A stretch of DNA of 64,000 nucleotides from Oscillospiraceae bacterium (GTDB taxonomy: Bacteria > Bacillota > Clostridia > Oscillospirales > Oscillospiraceae): NCBI GenBank assembly GCA_022801715.1, contig JAAWSV010000005.1, forward strand, positions 1 to 64,000, given 5' to 3'. The notes beneath the pieces were generated by a model. That model was not told the DNA's origin. It did no database searches and saw only the letters and a list, made by a program, of their open reading frames with translations. The translations under genes and the position numbers were made by a program. This document shows, piece by piece, positions 3,343 through 12,763 of this stretch (its first letter is position 1; each line of letters opens with the position of its first letter).

Positions 3343-4708
3343 GCTCCTTTTTCATGATTCGCAGGGCAGTTTGTGGATAGTGGGCGGAGAGGAGGCCCAT
3401 GGCGGAGAGGATATACCGCCGGTCCACCCGGATCTCCGCCGCCTTGGGCCGCAGGGAGGCGGGGACCGCCGGATCGTACAGGGCGTGGGCGGCGATCTCC
3501 CCGGTGCGCCTCGTGTGGATCAGGCTGCCGCCGGTGACCACCACCTGCCCCACATCCGTGAGATTCTTCCCCTCCTGAACGAAGGTCTGGCCCATCATGG
3601 TGTAGGTTTCGGTGATGGTGCCGGCGTGGCGGCGCACCGCCTCCTCAATGGCGCAGGAGGCCAGAGCAAAGTCCAGCTGCTCCAGCTCCCCGCCCTCCTC
3701 CGGGACCAAGTCCGGGTGGGTGCGGATCTCTGCCGTCAGGGCGATAAGGCGCTCCTCGCTGAGACCGGAGAGGGCGCTGAGACGGGGGAGCCCCGCGGCA
3801 TCCACGATGCCCTGTGCGCTGTAGCGCATCCCGATGTCTCCCTCCACCGTCCGCTTGGCGTAGGGCTCGGGGAGGCCCTTGTACACGGTGTTCATCTGCT
3901 GGGGCATCCCGTCGGCGATGGAGTAGACATCGGTGGTGGCCCCGCCTACGTCCACGGCCAGAAGCTCCCCGATCCCACTCTCCCCCTCACAGCCCTTGGC
4001 GAGGAGCTCCATCGCGAGGAGCACCGCCGAGGGGGTGGGCATCATGATGTCGGAGAGCAGCTCCGCCGCCCGGCTCAGGCCCTTGGCCTGGATGATCCTG
4101 CGGAGGAAAATCTCCCGGATCTTGCTCTGTGTGGGCTCTATGTTCAGCACGCCGAACTTGGGCATCACATTGGGGCAGACGTGGACCTCAAAGCCCTCCA
4201 AGAGCCTCTGGCACTGTCGGGCGGCGGTGCGATTTCCCGCCACGATCACCGGGAAGTCCGGGGGGAGCTTGGCGAGCATGGCCGCGTTGTGGAGGATACA
4301 CTCGGTGTTCCCCCCGTCGGTGCCCCCCACCAGGAGGAAGATGTCCGGCCGCGCGGCCCGGATATCCTCGATGTCGTCCTCTGTCAGCTGGAAGGCGTAG
4401 ATCCCGGCCACCTTGGCCCCGGCCCCCAAGCTGGCCAGCTTGGCCGCCTCCCCGGTGAGCTCCGGCACCAAGCCGCTGGTGATCATCCGAAGCCCCCCGG
4501 CGGCGGAGGAGCAGGCGTAGCACGCCTCGTAGTCCACCGGTCCGGTCTGGGCCTCCAAGAGCCGCCGGGCCTCCGTCAAACCGTCGCCAATGTCGGTCTC
4601 CACCGTGGTGTAGGCCGCGGCGGTGCCCAACAGGGTCTCCGCCTCCACATCCACAGCGGTGAGCTTGGTATAGGTGCTGCCAAAGTCGATGAGCAGGACC
4701 GCTCTCAT
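3317..4708 (-). CDS. glmL: Glutamate mutase activator/chaperone MutL-like protein (ASKHA ATPase)
   Basis: 463 aa; [20 protein letters not shown] and [11 protein letters not shown] nucleotide-binding motifs; between glmE and glmS. Confidence 0.9.
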
Positions 4709-5157
4709 GCGTCCCCACCATCCATATGCAGCAGCTCCCGCAGCGCCTCGATGGTGGTCTCCGGCGTGGTGCCCGGGGGAAAGGCCCGGTCGAAGCCCAT
4801 GGCCTTGAACCGGGGTTCCACATCCTCAAACCGCTGCTTGCCGATGACTATGTTGCCCCCCACCAGCAGGGGAATGCCCTTTAAGCCCGCCTCATCGCAC
4901 TTCTCCCGCAGGCCCCGGCAGTCCAGCTCCCCCTGACCGTACAGGGAGGAGACCACAATGGCGTCCGCGTCAGACTCGATGGCTGCCGCGATGTACTCCT
5001 CTTGGGAGACCATCACACCCAAGTTCACCACCTCGAACCCCGCCTCTGTGAAGGCGTGGTAGAGGATCTTGTTTCCCACGGCATGTACATCGGCCCCGAT
5101 GACACCGATGACAATGACCTTTTTTTCTCGCTGCTCCATCTCAGCACCTCGTTCCAT
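4705..5157 (-). CDS. glmS: Methylaspartate mutase small (sigma, B12-binding) subunit
   Basis: [10 protein letters not shown]12-binding motif; [16 protein letters not shown]. Confidence 0.93.
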
Positions 5158-5306
5158 AAATTTGCAGGCTCTCCACAGATTGTTCTGTACCTATATACTA
5201 TAATAGTCTATACCATATGTCAAGAACCAAAGCGGTCCTTGCCACATTTTTTCCCAGCTCTGCCGGAACACGCCTCTGCTGTCCGCTTATTGAGAACAAA
5301 AGGCTG

Positions 5307-6275
5307 TCAAATCGTCTTTTCTTCCCGTATGCGCTGGATTTTAGCCTCCAAATACAGCAGGGACCCCTCGTCCATCTCATAGCGGCAGTCGATCCGCTCC
5401 CCCGAAAAGCGGTGGAGGGCGTCCATGGTGGAGGCGGCGAAGTATCGCTCGCAGGACTCGGGCACCAGCACGGCATCCTTGTCCTGAAGATAGTCGCCGG
5501 CGCCCTCCTCCCCGGTGATGGGGCTGCCCAGCACCACCCCCTCGGCGTAGGCCTGACAGGTGGCGTGAAGGAGCTGGGCAAAGCGGAGGCTGTAGCCGAT
5601 GATGCCCAAGCGGGTGCCGCCGCGGAGCTTGATGATCCGGGAGAGGCAGGCGGGGCTGGGTCGCAGGGCCACCTGCGCGATGCGCTTTTTAGCGGAGAGG
5701 GTGCCCTCCAAAAACCCGGCGTGGGCTGCGGTGGTGACAATGAGATCAAAGTCCTCCAGCTGATAGGGGTAGGCCCGGACATTCTCCACCGGGTAAGCGT
5801 ACAGATCAACGCCCTCCTTCCGCCGGAGCTGGGCGGACATTTGGGAGAGGTTTTCCGGATTGCACTCCACCACCGCCACCTTGACGCTGGCCTCCTGATC
5901 CGCCCGCTCCCGCAGCTTCAAGTTGAGAAAGATGCTGATCTCGGCCATGCTGAGCCCCATCCCCTCCAGCTGGTCCAGCATGGCATCAATGGCCTGCATA
6001 GCCTGCTCCTTCCGACTGCCGGAGCTGGCGGGCTGATAGCGCACAAAGGTGCCCCGCCCCTGAACCTTCTCCACCAGCCCGCCCCGCTCCAGCTCATCAT
6101 AGGCCCGCTTAATGGTCCCCCGGGCCACACATAGGCTCTCCGTCACCTCCTGCACGGTGGGCAGCTGCTGTCCCGCCGTCAGCTCCCCCTTCCGAATCGC
6201 CGTACCAATGGCATCAGAGAGCTGCCGATAGATGGGAACATCCAGCTCGGGGTTGATGTGAATTGAAAGTTCCAT
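5307..6275 (-). CDS. GntR-family transcriptional regulator with C-terminal ligand-binding region
   Basis: MELSIHINPELDVPIYRQLSDAIGTAIRKGELTAGQQLPTVQEV GntR wHTH; start placed at 6275, not the upstream ORF-track start. Confidence 0.85.
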   Translation of the reverse strand: MELSIHINPELDVPIYRQLSDAIGTAIRKGELTAGQQLPTVQEVTESLCVARGTIKRAYDELERGGLVEKVQGRGTFVRYQPASSGSRKEQAMQAIDAMLDQLEGMGLSMAEISIFLNLKLRERADQEASVKVAVVECNPENLSQMSAQLRRKEGVDLYAYPVENVRAYPYQLEDFDLIVTTAAHAGFLEGTLSAKKRIAQVALRPSPACLSRIIKLRGGTRLGIIGYSLRFAQLLHATCQAYAEGVVLGSPITGEEGAGDYLQDKDAVLVPESCERYFAASTMDALHRFSGERIDCRYEMDEGSLLYLEAKIQRIREEKTI

Positions 6276-6345
6276 GCAAACACCACTTTCTTCCATGAGG
6301 AATGGGGAATTGTTCCCCTTTGCGCTCATTCCTAACTCCGAAGTC

Positions 6346-6903
6346 CTAATTCTCCGCAAGGTACGCCGCCCGCCCGGCTTGGTAGAGGTTGCCGCCCTCG
6401 CTGTCGATGACCACAATGGCGGGGAAGTCCTCCACCTCCAAGCGGCGGATGGCCTCGGCGCCCAAGTCCTCGTAGGCCACCACCTCCGCCTTCTTGATGC
6501 ACTTGCTGAGCAGCGCGCCGCAGCCGCCGATGGCGCCGAAGTACACCGCGCCGTGTTCCCGCATGGCGCTGACCACCTCCTCGTTCCGCTTGCCCTTGCC
6601 GATCATGCCGGTGAGCCCCTGGGCGATGAGCAGGGGGCTGTAGGCGTCCATGCGGTAGGAGGTGGTGGGGCCGGCGGAGCCGATGGCCTGGCCGGGCTTG
6701 GCCGGGGTGGGACCCACGAAGTAGATGATGGCGTCCCTCAGGTCGATGGGAAGGGGCTCCCCCTTCTCCAACAGCTCGCACAGGCGCTTGTGGGCGGCGT
6801 CCCGGGCGGTGTAGATCACGCCGGAGATGAGGCAGCTGTCCCCCGAGCGCAGGCGGCGGGCGTCCTCCGGGGTGAAGGGCGTCTTGATCCGAATGTTCGA
6901 CAT
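6346..6903 (-). CDS. Fe-S hydro-lyase beta subunit, fumarase/tartrate-dehydratase family (probable mesaconase/citramalate dehydratase)
   Basis: GPTPAKPGQAIGSAGPTTSYRMD family motif; placement in methylaspartate cluster. Confidence 0.85.
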   Translation of the reverse strand: MSNIRIKTPFTPEDARRLRSGDSCLISGVIYTARDAAHKRLCELLEKGEPLPIDLRDAIIYFVGPTPAKPGQAIGSAGPTTSYRMDAYSPLLIAQGLTGMIGKGKRNEEVVSAMREHGAVYFGAIGGCGALLSKCIKKAEVVAYEDLGAEAIRRLEVEDFPAIVVIDSEGGNLYQAGRAAYLAEN

Positions 6904-6904
6904 C

Positions 6905-7744
6905 TTAAAGCACCTCCGTCTTGTGTCTGGTCACGTGGCAGTTGATGTTCACCGCCACGGGAAGGCCGGCAATGTGGGTGGGCAAAGTCTCAATGTTCAC
7001 CGCCAAGGCCGTGGTCCGGCCGCCAAAGCCCTGCGGCCCGATGCCCAGGGCGTTGATGGCGGCGAGCAGCTCCTCCTCCAGCTCCGCATAGAAGGGGTCG
7101 GCGTTTCGCTCCTCCACGCTGCGCAGCAGCGCCCGTTTGGATAGGTACGCCGCCTTGTCAAAGGTGCCGCCAATGCCCACGCCCACCACAATGGGCGGGC
7201 AGGGGTTGGGCCCCGCGTCCTCCACCACCCGCAGGACAAAGTCCTTTACCCCCTGAAGGCCGTCGGAGGGACGGAGCATCTTGATCTGGCTCATATTCTC
7301 GCTGCCAAAGCCCTTGGGGGCCACGGTGATCTCGATCTGATCGCCGGGGACCAAGTCGTAGTAGAGGAAGGCGGGGGTGTTGTCCCCGGTGTTCACCCGG
7401 CGCAGGGGGTCTCTCACCACGCTCTTGCGCAGATACCCCTCACTGTAGCCCTGGCGGACGCCCTCGTTGACAGCGTCGGTGATGTCGCCGGTGACGTGGA
7501 CCTCCTGACCGATTTTCAAAAACACGCAGGCCGCGCCGGTGTCCTGACAGACGGGCTGGTCCTGCGCGTCGGCAATCTGGTAGTTCTCCATGATCCGCTC
7601 TAAAATCTCCCTGGCCTGGGGCCAGGTCTCCTGCTCCCGGCACTGGGCAATGCGGGACTTGATGTCCCCGCTCAGGTGGCAGTTGGTGTGGATGCACAGC
7701 CGCTTCACCGCCTCGGTGATCTGCTGCGCGCTGATCTCTCGCAT
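6905..7744 (-). CDS. Fe-S hydro-lyase alpha subunit, fumarase/tartrate-dehydratase family (probable mesaconase/citramalate dehydratase)
   Basis: CQDTGAACVFLKIG and KGFGSENMSQIKML motifs. Confidence 0.85.
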   Translation of the reverse strand: MREISAQQITEAVKRLCIHTNCHLSGDIKSRIAQCREQETWPQAREILERIMENYQIADAQDQPVCQDTGAACVFLKIGQEVHVTGDITDAVNEGVRQGYSEGYLRKSVVRDPLRRVNTGDNTPAFLYYDLVPGDQIEITVAPKGFGSENMSQIKMLRPSDGLQGVKDFVLRVVEDAGPNPCPPIVVGVGIGGTFDKAAYLSKRALLRSVEERNADPFYAELEEELLAAINALGIGPQGFGGRTTALAVNIETLPTHIAGLPVAVNINCHVTRHKTEVL

Positions 7745-7779
7745 AGCCGCTCCTCCTTCTGGTTTTTATGCCTTTATCG

Positions 7780-7814
7780 CCCTGTAGGGACGGACAGCAT
7801 CCGCCCCTACAGGG
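7780..7814. repeat. Dispersed TAGGGGCG-type hairpin repeat
   Basis: ccctgtagggacggacagcatccgcccctacaggg, near-perfect inverted repeat; related copies elsewhere in the window. Confidence 0.8.
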
Positions 7815-7824
7815 CCGTTTTATT

Positions 7825-9237
7825 CTAACGATTCCCGGGGAGAGTATAGATGGTGTCCAGCAGCTCCCCCTCCCGGCTGATGACCTTGGCCGCGACCCGG
7901 TCCCCCTTGGGGAGGGCCTTCGGCTTTCCGGTGATGGCCTCCGCCCGCTCTTTCAGCTCGTGGATGTCCACCACCGGCAGACCGGCCTGTTCCAGACGCT
8001 CCCGCAGCGCCGCCTGCCGTGGGTTCACCGCCACGCCGGCCTGGGTCACCAGCACGTCGATGTCCTGGCCGGGGGTGGAGATGCAGGTCACACGGTCGGT
8101 GACAATGGGCATCCGGGCCCGAAACAGCGGGGCAATGATCATGGCCAGCTTGCTCCCGGCGGCGGTGTCGCTGTGCCCGCCGGAGCCGCCCATGATGGAG
8201 CCGTTGGAGTCGGTGTGGACATTGACATTGAAGTCCGTGTCAATCTCCGTGGCCCCGAGGATCACCACGTCCAAGCTGTCCACCACCGCGCCCCGCTCAC
8301 CGGGGGCGGCATACTGCATGGCGGAGATCTCCTGGTGCCGGGGGTCCTCCCGCAGGGACTCCACCGCCTTGAGGTCGAAGCACTGGACGTCCATCAGCGA
8401 GCGGAAGCACCCCGCCCGGAGCATATCCACCAAGTACCCGGTGATGCCGCCGGAGGCGAAGCTGCCCTGAATCCCTTCCCGGAGCATGATGTCCTTCAAG
8501 AACCGGGCCGCCGCCAAGGAGGCCCCGCCGGCCCCGGTCTGGAAGGAGAAGCCCTCCTTCAGAAGCCCGGAGGCCTGGATCACCTTGGCCGCTTGGGCGG
8601 CCATCACCAGCCCCACCGGGTCCCGCGTCACCTGCGTGGTGCCGGAAACGATGCCCTTGGGGTCGCCGATGGCGTCCACCGTGACCACATAGTCCACATA
8701 GCTCTCCGGGATGGACCACCCCTGCAGGGGGTAGGGCACTATATTGTCGGTGATCACCACCACATGCTTGGCGTGCATGGCGTCGGCAAAGGCGTAGCCC
8801 AGGCTGCCGCAGGTGGACTTGCCGACCCGGCCGGTGCAGTTGCCCATGGGGTCCGCGGCGGGGGCGGCGATGAAGGCCACGTCGATGGGCGTCCGTCCCA
8901 TGGCGATGTCCTTAGGCCGTCCCCCGTGGGTGCGAAACTCCACCGGCGCCTCCAGCGCCCCCCGTGAGATGGCCCGCCCTAAACCGGCGGAGATATAGTT
9001 GGCCGCAAGATGGGTGACCACGCGGTTCTCTATGTGCCCCAGCAGGGGGGTGTGGACATCGAAGAGGGCGCTGGCGTTCACCGTCAGATCCCGAATCCCC
9101 ATCCCGGCGATCTCGTCCATCACGAAATTCAAGACGAAGTCCCCGTTGCGCAGGTGGTGGTGGAAGGAGACGGTCATCCCGTCCCGCAGCCCCGCCAGCG
9201 CGATGGCCTCCCGGAGGCTCTTTATAACCTTGCTCAT
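7825..9237 (-). CDS. citF: Citrate lyase alpha-subunit family (probable citramalate CoA-transferase)
   Basis: 470 aa CitF-like; followed by CitE/CitD homologues. Confidence 0.88.
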   Translation of the reverse strand: MSKVIKSLREAIALAGLRDGMTVSFHHHLRNGDFVLNFVMDEIAGMGIRDLTVNASALFDVHTPLLGHIENRVVTHLAANYISAGLGRAISRGALEAPVEFRTHGGRPKDIAMGRTPIDVAFIAAPAADPMGNCTGRVGKSTCGSLGYAFADAMHAKHVVVITDNIVPYPLQGWSIPESYVDYVVTVDAIGDPKGIVSGTTQVTRDPVGLVMAAQAAKVIQASGLLKEGFSFQTGAGGASLAAARFLKDIMLREGIQGSFASGGITGYLVDMLRAGCFRSLMDVQCFDLKAVESLREDPRHQEISAMQYAAPGERGAVVDSLDVVILGATEIDTDFNVNVHTDSNGSIMGGSGGHSDTAAGSKLAMIIAPLFRARMPIVTDRVTCISTPGQDIDVLVTQAGVAVNPRQAALRERLEQAGLPVVDIHELKERAEAITGKPKALPKGDRVAAKVISREGELLDTIYTLPGNR

Positions 9238-10112
9238 GCCGTCACCTCCCTCGAAATCCCCAGTGCCTCCGCCATGGCGATGGTCCGCTGGGCCCGGGAG
9301 ACAATGGGCGCGTCCACCATCTTGCCGTGGAGGGCAATGGCCCCCTTGCCCTGCGCCTTGGCCTCGGCAATGGCATCCATCACCTCATAGGCGTACCGGA
9401 TCTCCTCCGGCGACGGGCTGAATACCCGGTTGATTACCTCCACGTGCCGGGGGGAGATGGAGGACTTCCCGGAGAAGCCCAGGGCCTTGGCCAGAGCGGC
9501 GTCGGCCTCGATCCCCTCGTCGTCGTTCACGTTGGTGAAGGGGGTGTCGTAGACCTCCACCCCGGCGGCCCGGGCGGCCATCACCAGCCGGGTCCGGGCG
9601 TACTCGATCTCCCGCCCCCCCTTGGTGCGTTTGCACTGCAAATCGGCGGTCAGGTCCTCCGCCCCCAAAAAAAGCGCCTCCACCCTCGGACAGCAGGCGG
9701 CGATGGAGAAGGCGTTCTCCACGCCCAGGGCCGTCTCAATGAGGGGCATCAGCGCGGCCCGCTTTTGAAGCCCCAGCCGCTCCTCCACCTGCGCCATGGC
9801 CGCATCCGCCGCCTGTACCTCCTCCGCTGTGCCGGCCTTGGGCAGGAGGAGCATATCCGGTCCCTCCGGCAGGATGGCCTCCAGATCCGCGGCAAAGTAG
9901 GGGGTGTCCACGGCGTTGACCCGAACAATGCGCTCACAGCCCTGGAAGTCCATATACCGCATGGTATTGCGCACCAGAATCCGGGCGGCGTCCTTCTCCG
10001 CCGGGGACACCGCGTCCTCCAGATCGAAGATCACCGCGTCGGCCCCCAGACAGCTCCCGTTGATCAGCATGTTGGGGTTGTTCCCCGGCAAAAACAGCAT
10101 GCTTCTGCGCAT
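9234..10112 (-). CDS. citE: Citrate/citramalate lyase beta subunit
   Basis: MRRSMLFLPGNNPNMLINGSCLGADAVIFDLEDAV HpcH/HpaI-like; start placed at 10112. Confidence 0.9.
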   Translation of the reverse strand: MRRSMLFLPGNNPNMLINGSCLGADAVIFDLEDAVSPAEKDAARILVRNTMRYMDFQGCERIVRVNAVDTPYFAADLEAILPEGPDMLLLPKAGTAEEVQAADAAMAQVEERLGLQKRAALMPLIETALGVENAFSIAACCPRVEALFLGAEDLTADLQCKRTKGGREIEYARTRLVMAARAAGVEVYDTPFTNVNDDEGIEADAALAKALGFSGKSSISPRHVEVINRVFSPSPEEIRYAYEVMDAIAEAKAQGKGAIALHGKMVDAPIVSRAQRTIAMAEALGISREVTA

Positions 10113-10381
10113 CAGCACTCCCCCCTTCCCCGGCGGACAGCGGTCTCCACACGGGCCCGGATCACGCAGTCCAGGGCCCCACGGTCCACCACGCGGACAC
10201 AGGCGTCCGCCACACGCAGCTCCTCCAGCACCTCCTGAACCGTCTCCCGGATGGCCTCCCCAAAGCGCTCCAGGACGACGGACTCCAGGTGGATCTGAAT
10301 TCCCCCCTCGCTGGGCTCGATCTCCACATAGGCGTCGCTGGATTCCAGTGTTCCCGCAGACGCCGGACGCAGACTGTCCAT
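10112..10381 (-). CDS. citD: Citrate/citramalate lyase acyl carrier protein (gamma subunit)
   Basis: 89 aa; ESSDAYVEIEPSEGGIQIHLESVV; one-base overlap with citE. Confidence 0.85.
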   Translation of the reverse strand: MDSLRPASAGTLESSDAYVEIEPSEGGIQIHLESVVLERFGEAIRETVQEVLEELRVADACVRVVDRGALDCVIRARVETAVRRGRGEC

Positions 10382-10435
10382 TGTTTGACCGCCTCCTTTT
10401 CATGTTATTTTGGAAAGTTGCTGTAACAATGTGGT

Positions 10436-10466
10436 GATATTATATAATACCATTTGGGGAAATGCA
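10436..10466 (-). promoter_or_regulatory. Sigma-70-like promoter for the citDEF/hydratase/glm operon
   Basis: minus strand TTGCAT-N17-TATAAT upstream of citD. Confidence 0.6.
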
Positions 10467-10533
10467 ATTCTTTTTATCGCACGTGTGGGGGAGACCGTCT
10501 GTGATCCGCCGCTGAAAATGTCGTTTTTCTGTT

Positions 10534-10647
10534 TTACGCTCCCATCCGCCGCAGCAATACAACCCCAGCCCAGATCATCGCCACCACACCGAACACGCCC
10601 GCCATCCCCTCGGCCAAAATCCTGAGTGTCACAATAAATTCTGCCAT
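10534..10647 (-). CDS. OadG-like 37-aa single-pass membrane protein (not in the ORF track)
   Basis: MAEFIVTLRILAEGMAGVFGVVAMIWAGVVLLRRMGA*; directly downstream of the OadB homologue. Confidence 0.6.
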   Translation of the reverse strand: MAEFIVTLRILAEGMAGVFGVVAMIWAGVVLLRRMGA

Positions 10648-10688
10648 ATCCAATTACTCCTATCTCAAATCATATCGGAAAGCCCATC

Positions 10689-11789
10689 TCATACCAGCGG
10701 CGCGACCAAGGAGAGGATCATTCCTCCGGCGATCACCGAGGCGATCTGTCCGCCGACGTTTGCCCCCGCTGCCTGCATCAGGAGGAAGTTGTAGGGGTCC
10801 TCCTGCAGGCCCATCCTGTGTACCGTGCGGGAGGCCATGGGAAAGGCGGAGATCCCCGCCGCGCCGATCATGGGATTTACCTTCCTTTTGCAGAACAGAT
10901 TCAGCCCCTTGGCAAACAGCACCCCGCCGGCGGTGTCCAGCAGAAAGGCCAGCAGGCCCAGCCCTAAGATCATCAGCGTCTCCCAAGTGACAAACAGCTC
11001 CGCGCGCATCTGGAACGCCACCGTCAGCCCCAGCAGCAGCGTGACGAGGTTGGCCAGCTCGTGCTGGGCACTCTGGCTCAGGCTCTCCAGCACACCGCAC
11101 TCCCGAATCAGGTTGCCGAACATCAAAAATCCGATGAGCTCCGCGCTCTTAGGCGCCGCCGCCCCGGCCAGCACCGTCACCAGAATGGGAAACAGGATTC
11201 TGGTGGACTTGGACACGCTTTTGGGGGCGTACTCCATGCGGATTCTCCGCTCCTCCTCTGTGGTCAAAAGACGGATCACCGGCGGCTGGACGATAGGCAC
11301 CAGCGCCATGTAGCTGTAGGCCGCCACCATAATGGCCCCCTGATACCGGCTCTGGAAGTAGTTGGCCACATAGATGCTGGTGGGGCCATCCGCCGCGCCG
11401 ATGATGCCGATGGAGGCGGCATCCCGCAGATCAAAGCCCAGCAGCACCGCCGCCGACAGCGTGAGAAATACCCCCAGCTGGGCCGCCGCGCCGAAGAGCA
11501 GCAGCTTGGGGTCGCTGAGGAGGGGGCCGAAGTCGATCATGGCCCCCACCCCGATGAAAAGCAGCAGCGGAAAGAGCTCGCTGGCAATCCCGGCCTCAAA
11601 CAGCGTTTCCAGCGCCGGCACCTCCGACAGGGGCAGATTCACCAGAATAGCCCCAAAGCCCATAGGCAGCAGCAGCGCCGGCTCCATCCCCCGCCTGACC
11701 GCCAGATAGATCAGCGTCAGGCCGATGAGGATCATGATTCCCTGCTGGGGCGTGAAGGCAAGAAGATTGGAAAATACAGTGTGTTCCAT
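10689..11789 (-). CDS. Sodium ion-translocating decarboxylase beta subunit (OadB/GcdB/MmdB family)
   Basis: GIIGAADGPTSIYVANYF and NPMIGAAGISAFPMASRTV family motifs. Confidence 0.92.
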   Translation of the reverse strand: MEHTVFSNLLAFTPQQGIMILIGLTLIYLAVRRGMEPALLLPMGFGAILVNLPLSEVPALETLFEAGIASELFPLLLFIGVGAMIDFGPLLSDPKLLLFGAAAQLGVFLTLSAAVLLGFDLRDAASIGIIGAADGPTSIYVANYFQSRYQGAIMVAAYSYMALVPIVQPPVIRLLTTEEERRIRMEYAPKSVSKSTRILFPILVTVLAGAAAPKSAELIGFLMFGNLIRECGVLESLSQSAQHELANLVTLLLGLTVAFQMRAELFVTWETLMILGLGLLAFLLDTAGGVLFAKGLNLFCKRKVNPMIGAAGISAFPMASRTVHRMGLQEDPYNFLLMQAAGANVGGQIASVIAGGMILSLVAPLV

Positions 11790-11799
11790 AGAAAAAACC

Positions 11800-11854
11800 T
11801 CCTGAAAATAAAAAGAGAGACTTTTACAGCGCCGTTACGCACTGTAAAAGTCTC
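11800..11854 (-). terminator. Intrinsic terminator of the riboswitch expression platform
   Basis: minus strand gagacttttacag-N12-ctgtaaaagtctc followed by TCTTTTTATTTT; 5' arm overlaps the aptamer P1 3' strand. Confidence 0.85.
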
Positions 11855-11937
11855 ATCATTTCAGACAAAGCCGGGCCCGCGGCCGTACTGACGTGCTTTG
11901 CCGCGCCCCATAGGGACGCCGACTACTCCCTTTTGGC
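11842..11937 (-). ncRNA. yybP-ykoY-type (Mn2+) riboswitch aptamer
   Basis: minus strand AAAAGGGAGUAG...GGCAAAGCACGUCAGUACGG...CCGGCUUUGUCUGA...GAUGAGACUUUU, matching the yybP-ykoY conserved core. Confidence 0.82.
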
Positions 11938-11939
11938 CC

Positions 11940-11968
11940 ATGATATGCCAGAGAGCCGCTCTTGTCAA
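11940..11968 (-). promoter_or_regulatory. Promoter of the riboswitch/oadB transcript
   Basis: minus strand TTGACA (11963-11968)-N17-TATCAT (11940-11945). Confidence 0.7.
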
Positions 11969-11998
11969 CTATCCAAAGGCAGCCTTAACGGCCCCTTG

Positions 11999-12763
11999 TC
12001 ATCCCCGGTCGGCGGCAATGACCCGCTTCAGGGCCTCCACTCCCACCCGGACAGCGGCGGAGGTGTCCTTGCTCATCGTCTGGTCCAGACCGGCGGCCTC
12101 CCGCTCCTGATTCCAGATCACGTGGAAGCAGGAGCCGCAACGGACCCCCCGGGCGGCGGCCACGGTGAACAGCGCCGCGGACTCCATCTCGCTGGCCTTC
12201 ACCCCGAGGCGTTTCCAAGCCTCCCACTTCTCCAAAAGCTCGGCGCTGACGGGCATTCTGCCGGGGCTGTGCTGACCGTAGAAGCTGTCCTTGCACTGGA
12301 CCACCCCGGCGTGGCAGGTCTTGCCCAAGGCCTTGGCGGCGTCGATGAGGGCGGCGGTGAGGGTAAAATCCGGCACGGCGGGGTACTCGATGGGGGCGTA
12401 CTCCCGGCTGGTGCCCTCCTGCCGCACGGCCCCGGTGGCCACCACGATGTTCCCGGACTGGACGGAGAGGGCAATGCCGCCGCAGGTGCCCACCCGGATA
12501 AAGGTGTCCGTGCCGATATTCGTGAGCTCCTCCATGGCGATGGCGGCAGAGGGCCCGCCGATGCCGGTAGAGCAGACCGAGACCTTCTCTCCCAAGAGGG
12601 TGCCGGTGTAGACGGTGTACTCCCGGTTCTGGGCCACCAGCTCCGCGCCGTCAAACAGCGCCGCAATGGACGCGCAGCGTCCCGGATCCCCGGGGAGGAT
12701 GCAGTAGCGGCCCACGTCGCCGCTCCGACAGTTGATGTGAAACTCTCTCTCTAATTCCTGCAT
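11999..12763 (-). CDS. Uridine phosphorylase-like nucleoside phosphorylase
   Basis: [29 protein letters not shown]; phosphorylase family motifs; start placed at 12763. Confidence 0.85.

Follow-up and report, generated by a model that had tools for sequence, protein, structure and literature searches.

In the genome of an Oscillospiraceae bacterium, a gene of the OadB family, annotated as the beta subunit of a Na+-pump decarboxylase, is preceded on the minus strand by a leader that resembles a manganese riboswitch. This raises the question whether the leader belongs to the yybP-ykoY class of Mn2+ riboswitches and, if so, what such an RNA does in front of an OadB gene. We consider it highly probable that the leader is a Mn2+-sensing transcriptional ON switch of the yybP-ykoY class, and that it stands ahead of a non-canonical OadB protein most likely serving the response to excess Mn2+.

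The leader and its class

The window, i.e. the whole stretch of DNA that was analysed (64 kb), contains the complete regulatory layout on the minus strand. The promoter, the core strings of the aptamer, the terminator with its T tail and the start of oadB at 11789 had all been pointed out in the preliminary description, and each is present where it was placed. The features are the following:

11940-11968, minus strand: sigma-70-type promoter TTGACA-N17-TATCAT, with 11 of 12 consensus matches (1 site found, 0.5 expected in shuffles)
11846-11934, minus strand: aptamer of the yybP-ykoY (Mn2+) class in a three-way form without the P4 hairpin (match to covariance model R2 with 79 bits, E = 3.7e-20, and covariation)
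11924-11929, minus strand: L1 core GGAGUA, invariant in 31 of 31 OadB-linked and 41 of 41 MntP-linked leaders of alignment A4
11889-11893, minus strand: L3 core CGUCA (CGUCA or CGACA in 29 alignable OadB-linked leaders)
11846-11850, minus strand: 3' strand CUUUU of the switch helix (P1.1 in the literature), pairing with AAAAG at 11934-11930 (structure counts of helix 1)
11817-11854, minus strand: intrinsic terminator of 16 pairs, then TCTTTTTATT (fold z -8.7; arrangement kept in 32 of 32 OadB-linked leaders)
11798-11803, minus strand: Shine-Dalgarno sequence AGGAGG, read from the sequence
10689-11789, minus strand: orphan OadB-family gene of 366 amino acids, member of the E71/D285/Q348 clade (TIGR01109, 406.9 bits; separate clade; structure model with pLDDT 91.8 and TM 0.90 to 6iww)

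The promoter is the sole promoter-like site in the scanned region 10300-12060, and a leader from the same genus (L004) has TTGACA-N17-TATAAT at the equivalent position, as read from the sequence. The open reading frame downstream starts with an ATG and is assigned to the Na_pump_decarbB family by its profile match to TIGR01109. Beyond oadB, at 4705-10403 on the same strand, there are citD/citE/citF-like genes, a two-part fumarase-like hydratase, a GntR regulator and methylaspartate mutase S. This set suggests glutamate fermentation by the methylaspartate route, with citramalate lyase and mesaconase, and not citrate fermentation. At two loci from the same genus, the OadB leader has about 130 nt away, in divergent orientation, an M-box (Mg2+) riboswitch that precedes a MgtE-like gene (L004:1213-1376, minus strand; L005:1365-1528, plus strand).

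The assignment to the yybP-ykoY (Mn2+) class had been made from the sequence of the window, with a search using the Rfam model RF00080 proposed as the check. That search gave nothing: with the gathering score as threshold the leader stayed unmatched in the window and in its own genome, and in small stretches it stayed so at E <= 10. Further leaders from the order, one of them ahead of mntP, likewise fall below the 45-bit cut-off of RF00080, and the missing match is therefore uninformative about membership. We read it as a sensitivity gap of the Rfam model, and RF00080 was dropped as a membership test because of its poor reach in this order. The current model misses the class throughout a bacterial order, mntP leaders included, so that manganese regulation is under-annotated there.

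Two covariance models built from relatives give a different picture. R1, built from eight leaders of the same genus, has matches in 96 of the 394 genomes of the order and in all 11 of the genus. R2, built from leaders of this order only, recovers the leader of E. coli mntP with E = 2.8e-6 and, weakly, that of alx with E = 0.022, both at the correct position; within the window it gives one match only, the aptamer listed above. In the opposite direction, RF00080 gives sub-threshold scores to two elements found with R1 and R2, and it also scores a leader of an orphan oadB (L015). This two-way bridge argues for yybP-ykoY membership despite the missed Rfam cut-off. The class assignment is thus borne out by comparison with E. 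coli mntP and with leaders of standard Mn exporters through our own models, and not by RF00080.

The structure of the aptamer is supported in the same comparative way. BLASTN recovered the leader from seven further genomes of the genus, there too ahead of the same type of gene. In the eight same-genus leaders, with a structure drawn by hand, 94.4% of the cells pair and eight pairs have changed on both sides. Among 101 leaders, 28 of 29 pairs have changed on both sides, and the covariation score is 0.670, compared with 0.246 in shuffles and 0.12 or less when the structure is slid, in an alignment whose fitting to the covariance model biases it towards the structure. A set of 25 OadB-linked leaders from other genera only still scores 0.577 against 0.200 in shuffles. 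The features of the class, covarying helices with an invariant L1 GGAGUA and an invariant adenine in L3, are present here. Relative to dinucleotide shuffles, the folding energy of leader plus terminator is lower by 5 SD (z -5.1) and that of the isolated terminator by 8.7 SD, but for the aptamer alone no unusual stability is seen (z -0.66). It is the comparative evidence that places the aptamer beyond chance.

The leader resembles the E. coli mntP switch and the transcriptional switch of L. lactis (RF00080) in L1 GGAGUA, in an L3 of the form C-purine-N-CA and in helix order, as well as in a switch helix shared with the terminator and in the association with Mn exporters. It differs from these systems in lacking the P4 hairpin, in being unmatched by RF00080 and in its OadB-family target.

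Genes behind the RNA and the separate OadB clade

When the first genes behind 127 matches of R1 and R2 were clustered, MntP was found in 49 cases, OadB in 33, a P-type Mn/Ca ATPase in 25 and CaCA antiporters in 6, followed by small groups; the cluster names, except OadB, were assigned by eye from sequence motifs. In the whole phylum, the best matches precede GDT1/UPF0016, MntP, ATPase and CaCA genes. The association with Mn-export genes that marks the class is accordingly present behind matches of the same model (MntP, P-type ATPase and GDT1). With 33 of the 127 first genes, an OadB-type target is unusual yet recurrent, and comparison of the neighbourhoods, which had been suggested as a check, shows the pairing of aptamer and oadB across related genomes.

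The preliminary description had also remarked that an OadB-family target is not canonical for this class. No report linking a Mn2+ riboswitch to oadB was found among open-access publications, although an earlier mention in the primary 2015 yybP-ykoY or 2019 streptococcal papers or their supplements is possible. Riboswitch targets have repeatedly exposed the roles of unknown transporters. In this case a sensor of a known type links manganese to a large clade that, in many gut and anaerobic bacteria, carries the annotation of a Na+-pump decarboxylase subunit, and this gives a direct hypothesis about the role of the clade. The recurrent pairing in related gut bacteria suggests, at the level of sequence, an unrecognised role of the protein in manganese handling.

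MntP (PF02659), the only other Mn exporter surveyed in the own genome, was undetected in that genome (G000) and in its sister G001, two incomplete genomes of one lineage, and was present in the other 34 genomes examined. This would fit with OadB sharing in Mn2+ efflux in G000 and G001.

Several other genes are also preceded by leaders of this class. The own genome has a second Mn-type aptamer (C81:46195-46286, plus strand; locus L057:1501-1592; 49 bits with R1) about 250 nt ahead of a gene that by reading resembles a Na/Pi cotransporter of the NptA/PhoU type, and the same pair is found in the sister genome G001 (L058). Leaders ahead of a TetR-like regulator gene were found at four loci (L038, L072, L089 and L110), and three or four stand ahead of an ArsB/NhaD-like permease (L140, L141, L142 and, by BLASTN, L009). 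At L027, two Mn-type aptamers on the minus strand (1501-1585 and 2752-2836) have the same direction and are about 1.2 kb apart.

The target had been taken for the beta subunit of a Na+-pump decarboxylase. It is instead a separate OadB paralogue, and the canonical copy is encoded elsewhere: a different contig of the own genome carries another OadB, adjacent to OadA and a biotin carrier, and most genomes examined are alike in this. In a tree, the switch-linked proteins form a clade apart from canonical OadB with a support of 100/100. Residues E71, I85, A132, D285, A310 and Q348 are fixed or nearly fixed differences of the clade, and D134, N305, S314, R321 and N344, the Na+-site and catalytic residues, are common to the clade and canonical OadB. 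The AlphaFold model (pLDDT 91.8) has a TM score of 0.90 to 6iww and distant matches to Na+/H+ antiporters and CitS. The switch-linked protein thus has the fold and the Na+-site residues of a beta subunit, with 43% identity to OadB (6iva/6iww), but it belongs to a separate clade with its own residues (E71/I85/A132/D285/Q348), is shorter and is not beside OadA in this genome.

These shared features leave room for a reading in which the RNA does sense Mn2+, yet the encoded protein is a normal Na+-pump beta subunit working with OadA and a biotin carrier from other loci, and Mn2+ thereby tunes the decarboxylase. We regard this as possible, though on balance doubtful. It agrees with the retained D134, N305, S314, R321 and N344, and most genomes with the gene have OadA as well. 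In the own genome, the orphan oadB lies away from OadA and the biotin carrier, both encoded elsewhere. A biotin carrier also adjoins clade members at L271, L274, L279, L226 and L298. Two of these (L271 and L279), from lactic acid bacteria, have OadA nearby as well, and with these and the three other loci the clade is not uniformly orphaned. However, in most of these genomes, the own included, a canonical OadB already stands beside OadA. In three nearly complete genomes carrying the clade gene (G165, G075 and G226) OadA was not found and the gene stands alone among unrelated genes; in G165 there were zero matches to the Biotin_lipoyl domain, which is present in 14 of 14 control genomes. Partner genes within 5 kb were found at none of the 32 aptamer-linked loci, as compared with 5 of 48 aptamer-less loci, a difference that is not significant alone (P = 0.08).

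At L226 and L298, a canonical oadB adjoins the clade-type oadB, with the biotin carrier upstream. E71 and D285 were considered as proof of metal transport and rejected, since both residues also occur in those clade members of lactic acid bacteria that adjoin a biotin carrier.

A role in the response to excess Mn2+ is the reading we prefer, and export of Mn2+ by the product is plausible. Tentatively, the E71/D285/Q348 clade in Clostridia might be an unrecognised family of exporters for Mn2+ (or divalent cations) that arose from a Na+-pump beta subunit, lost its biotin-dependent partners and was captured by the riboswitch at least twice.

The proposed switch and its probable ligand

From an overlap of the 5' arm of the terminator with the 3' strand of P1, the preliminary description had deduced an ON switch, and this logic holds in the comparison. 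In the window leader, the switch-helix strand at 11850-11846 falls inside the 5' arm of the terminator. The 5' arm uses this strand in all 32 OadB-linked leaders, as compared with 18 of 320 with shuffled downstream sequence, and the same overlap is found in 47 of 48 MntP-linked leaders. The ON switch of L. lactis works in this way: helix P1.1 is stabilised by Mn2+, and failing that its 3' strand becomes part of the terminator (PMC11087558). By analogy, control at this locus should be transcriptional and ON with ligand.

At low Mn2+, the CUUUU strand would pair into the terminator and transcription would stop ahead of oadB. Mn2+ bound between L1 (GGAGUA) and L3 (CGUCA) would hold the switch helix AAAAG/CUUUU, the terminator would be blocked and oadB transcribed. 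The product of the OadB clade would then most likely serve when Mn2+ is in excess, and it is plausibly a cation transporter built on the elevator fold of OadB. Mn2+ control of the orphan oadB is well supported by the comparative evidence; that Mn2+ is the ligand of this particular copy, and that it turns the gene on, is what we infer from the relatives.

L3 is found in two subtypes. In alignment A4, it is CGUCA or CGACA in 29 OadB leaders and CAACA in 39 of 41 MntP leaders, the latter form being found also in E. coli mntP. The L3 of most OadB leaders thus differs from that of the MntP leaders of the same genomes, and the two forms might differ in affinity or in the ion that they prefer. CAACA is carried by four OadB leaders from a separate lineage. 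Because both subtypes are found ahead of OadB genes, these sequences indicate that the gene family was probably recruited to this riboswitch class at least twice. By our own alignment to the L. lactis RNA, we take the last A of CGUCA in the window to correspond to the Mn2+-binding A41. In L. lactis, the change A41U abolishes Mn2+ binding (PMC11087558).

With such a difference in L3, the OadB-linked leaders might be a variant of the yybP fold with a changed ligand, e.g. Ca2+ or another divalent ion, and not mainly a Mn2+ switch. This is unlikely: the adenine of L3 is invariant, as is L1, one OadB lineage has the CAACA form of E. coli mntP, and the L3 of the streptococcal SSRC10 RNA reads CGUCA as well, as does that of the L. 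lactis Mn2+ riboswitch. On the other side, Sherlock and Breaker expect variants with altered ion specificity (PMC7266159), and tighter in vitro binding of Ca2+ than of Mn2+ has been reported for the streptococcal mgtA switch (PMC9495176). A plain terminator or attenuator without ligand, resembling an aptamer by chance, would fit the ordinary stability of the aptamer alone but is very improbable in view of the strong covariation, the invariant core and the recurrent link to Mn exporters. A Na+-I (DUF1646) riboswitch, likewise an ion riboswitch raising expression and known before some oxaloacetate decarboxylase genes, has two extended hairpins (PMC9337991) where the window leader has a junction, and this identity was rejected as next to impossible, being also unmatched up to E = 10 in a scan of all Rfam (a library taken to include the motif).

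Related elements and spread within the clade

The only notable Rfam match of the leader is SSRC10 (RF02617), with 22.7 bits and E = 0.034 at 11812-11932 on the minus strand, and relatives reach up to 36 bits. The two have the L3 CGUCA in common and the SSRC10 consensus likewise lacks the P4 hairpin, but the window score is under the family cut-off of 56 bits and SSRC10 is filed in Rfam as an sRNA. In Streptococcus, this RNA precedes a putative calcium transporter (PMC3675131). With that gene downstream and the core of a Mn2+ riboswitch, SSRC10 looks like a misfiled riboswitch, and we infer that it is the streptococcal Mn2+ switch. An independent sRNA of the SSRC10 type was rejected for the window because promoter, terminator and gene stand in line with the matched leader.

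The aptamer is unevenly distributed among the OadB genes. It stands directly upstream at about 32 of 80 named clade loci (about 40%), and at none of 31 canonical OadB loci. The named loci include Marasmitruncus massiliensis, Neobittarella massiliensis, Pseudoflavonifractor capillosus and [Clostridium] symbiosum; the weakest two of the roughly 32 matches, with E of about 0.002, are those in C. symbiosum and C. transplantifaecale. Among 60 further clade members in the order, missed by a stricter scan, 18 have the aptamer. A count of 43 aptamer-linked genes among 85 is biased upward, as it sets all linked genes against a mere sample of unlinked ones, and about 40% is fairer. About 60% of the clade is thus without the aptamer, which counts against the preferred reading, and in the sets checked no other Rfam regulatory elements were found directly upstream of these members. 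As judged from the sequences, the aptamer is often gained or lost within the clade. Three clade members of the same genus (L208, L209 and L210) are without a recognisable aptamer; at L210, a degenerate AAAAUGGAGGAAUCGGCGUC follows a good promoter and resembles a decayed leader.
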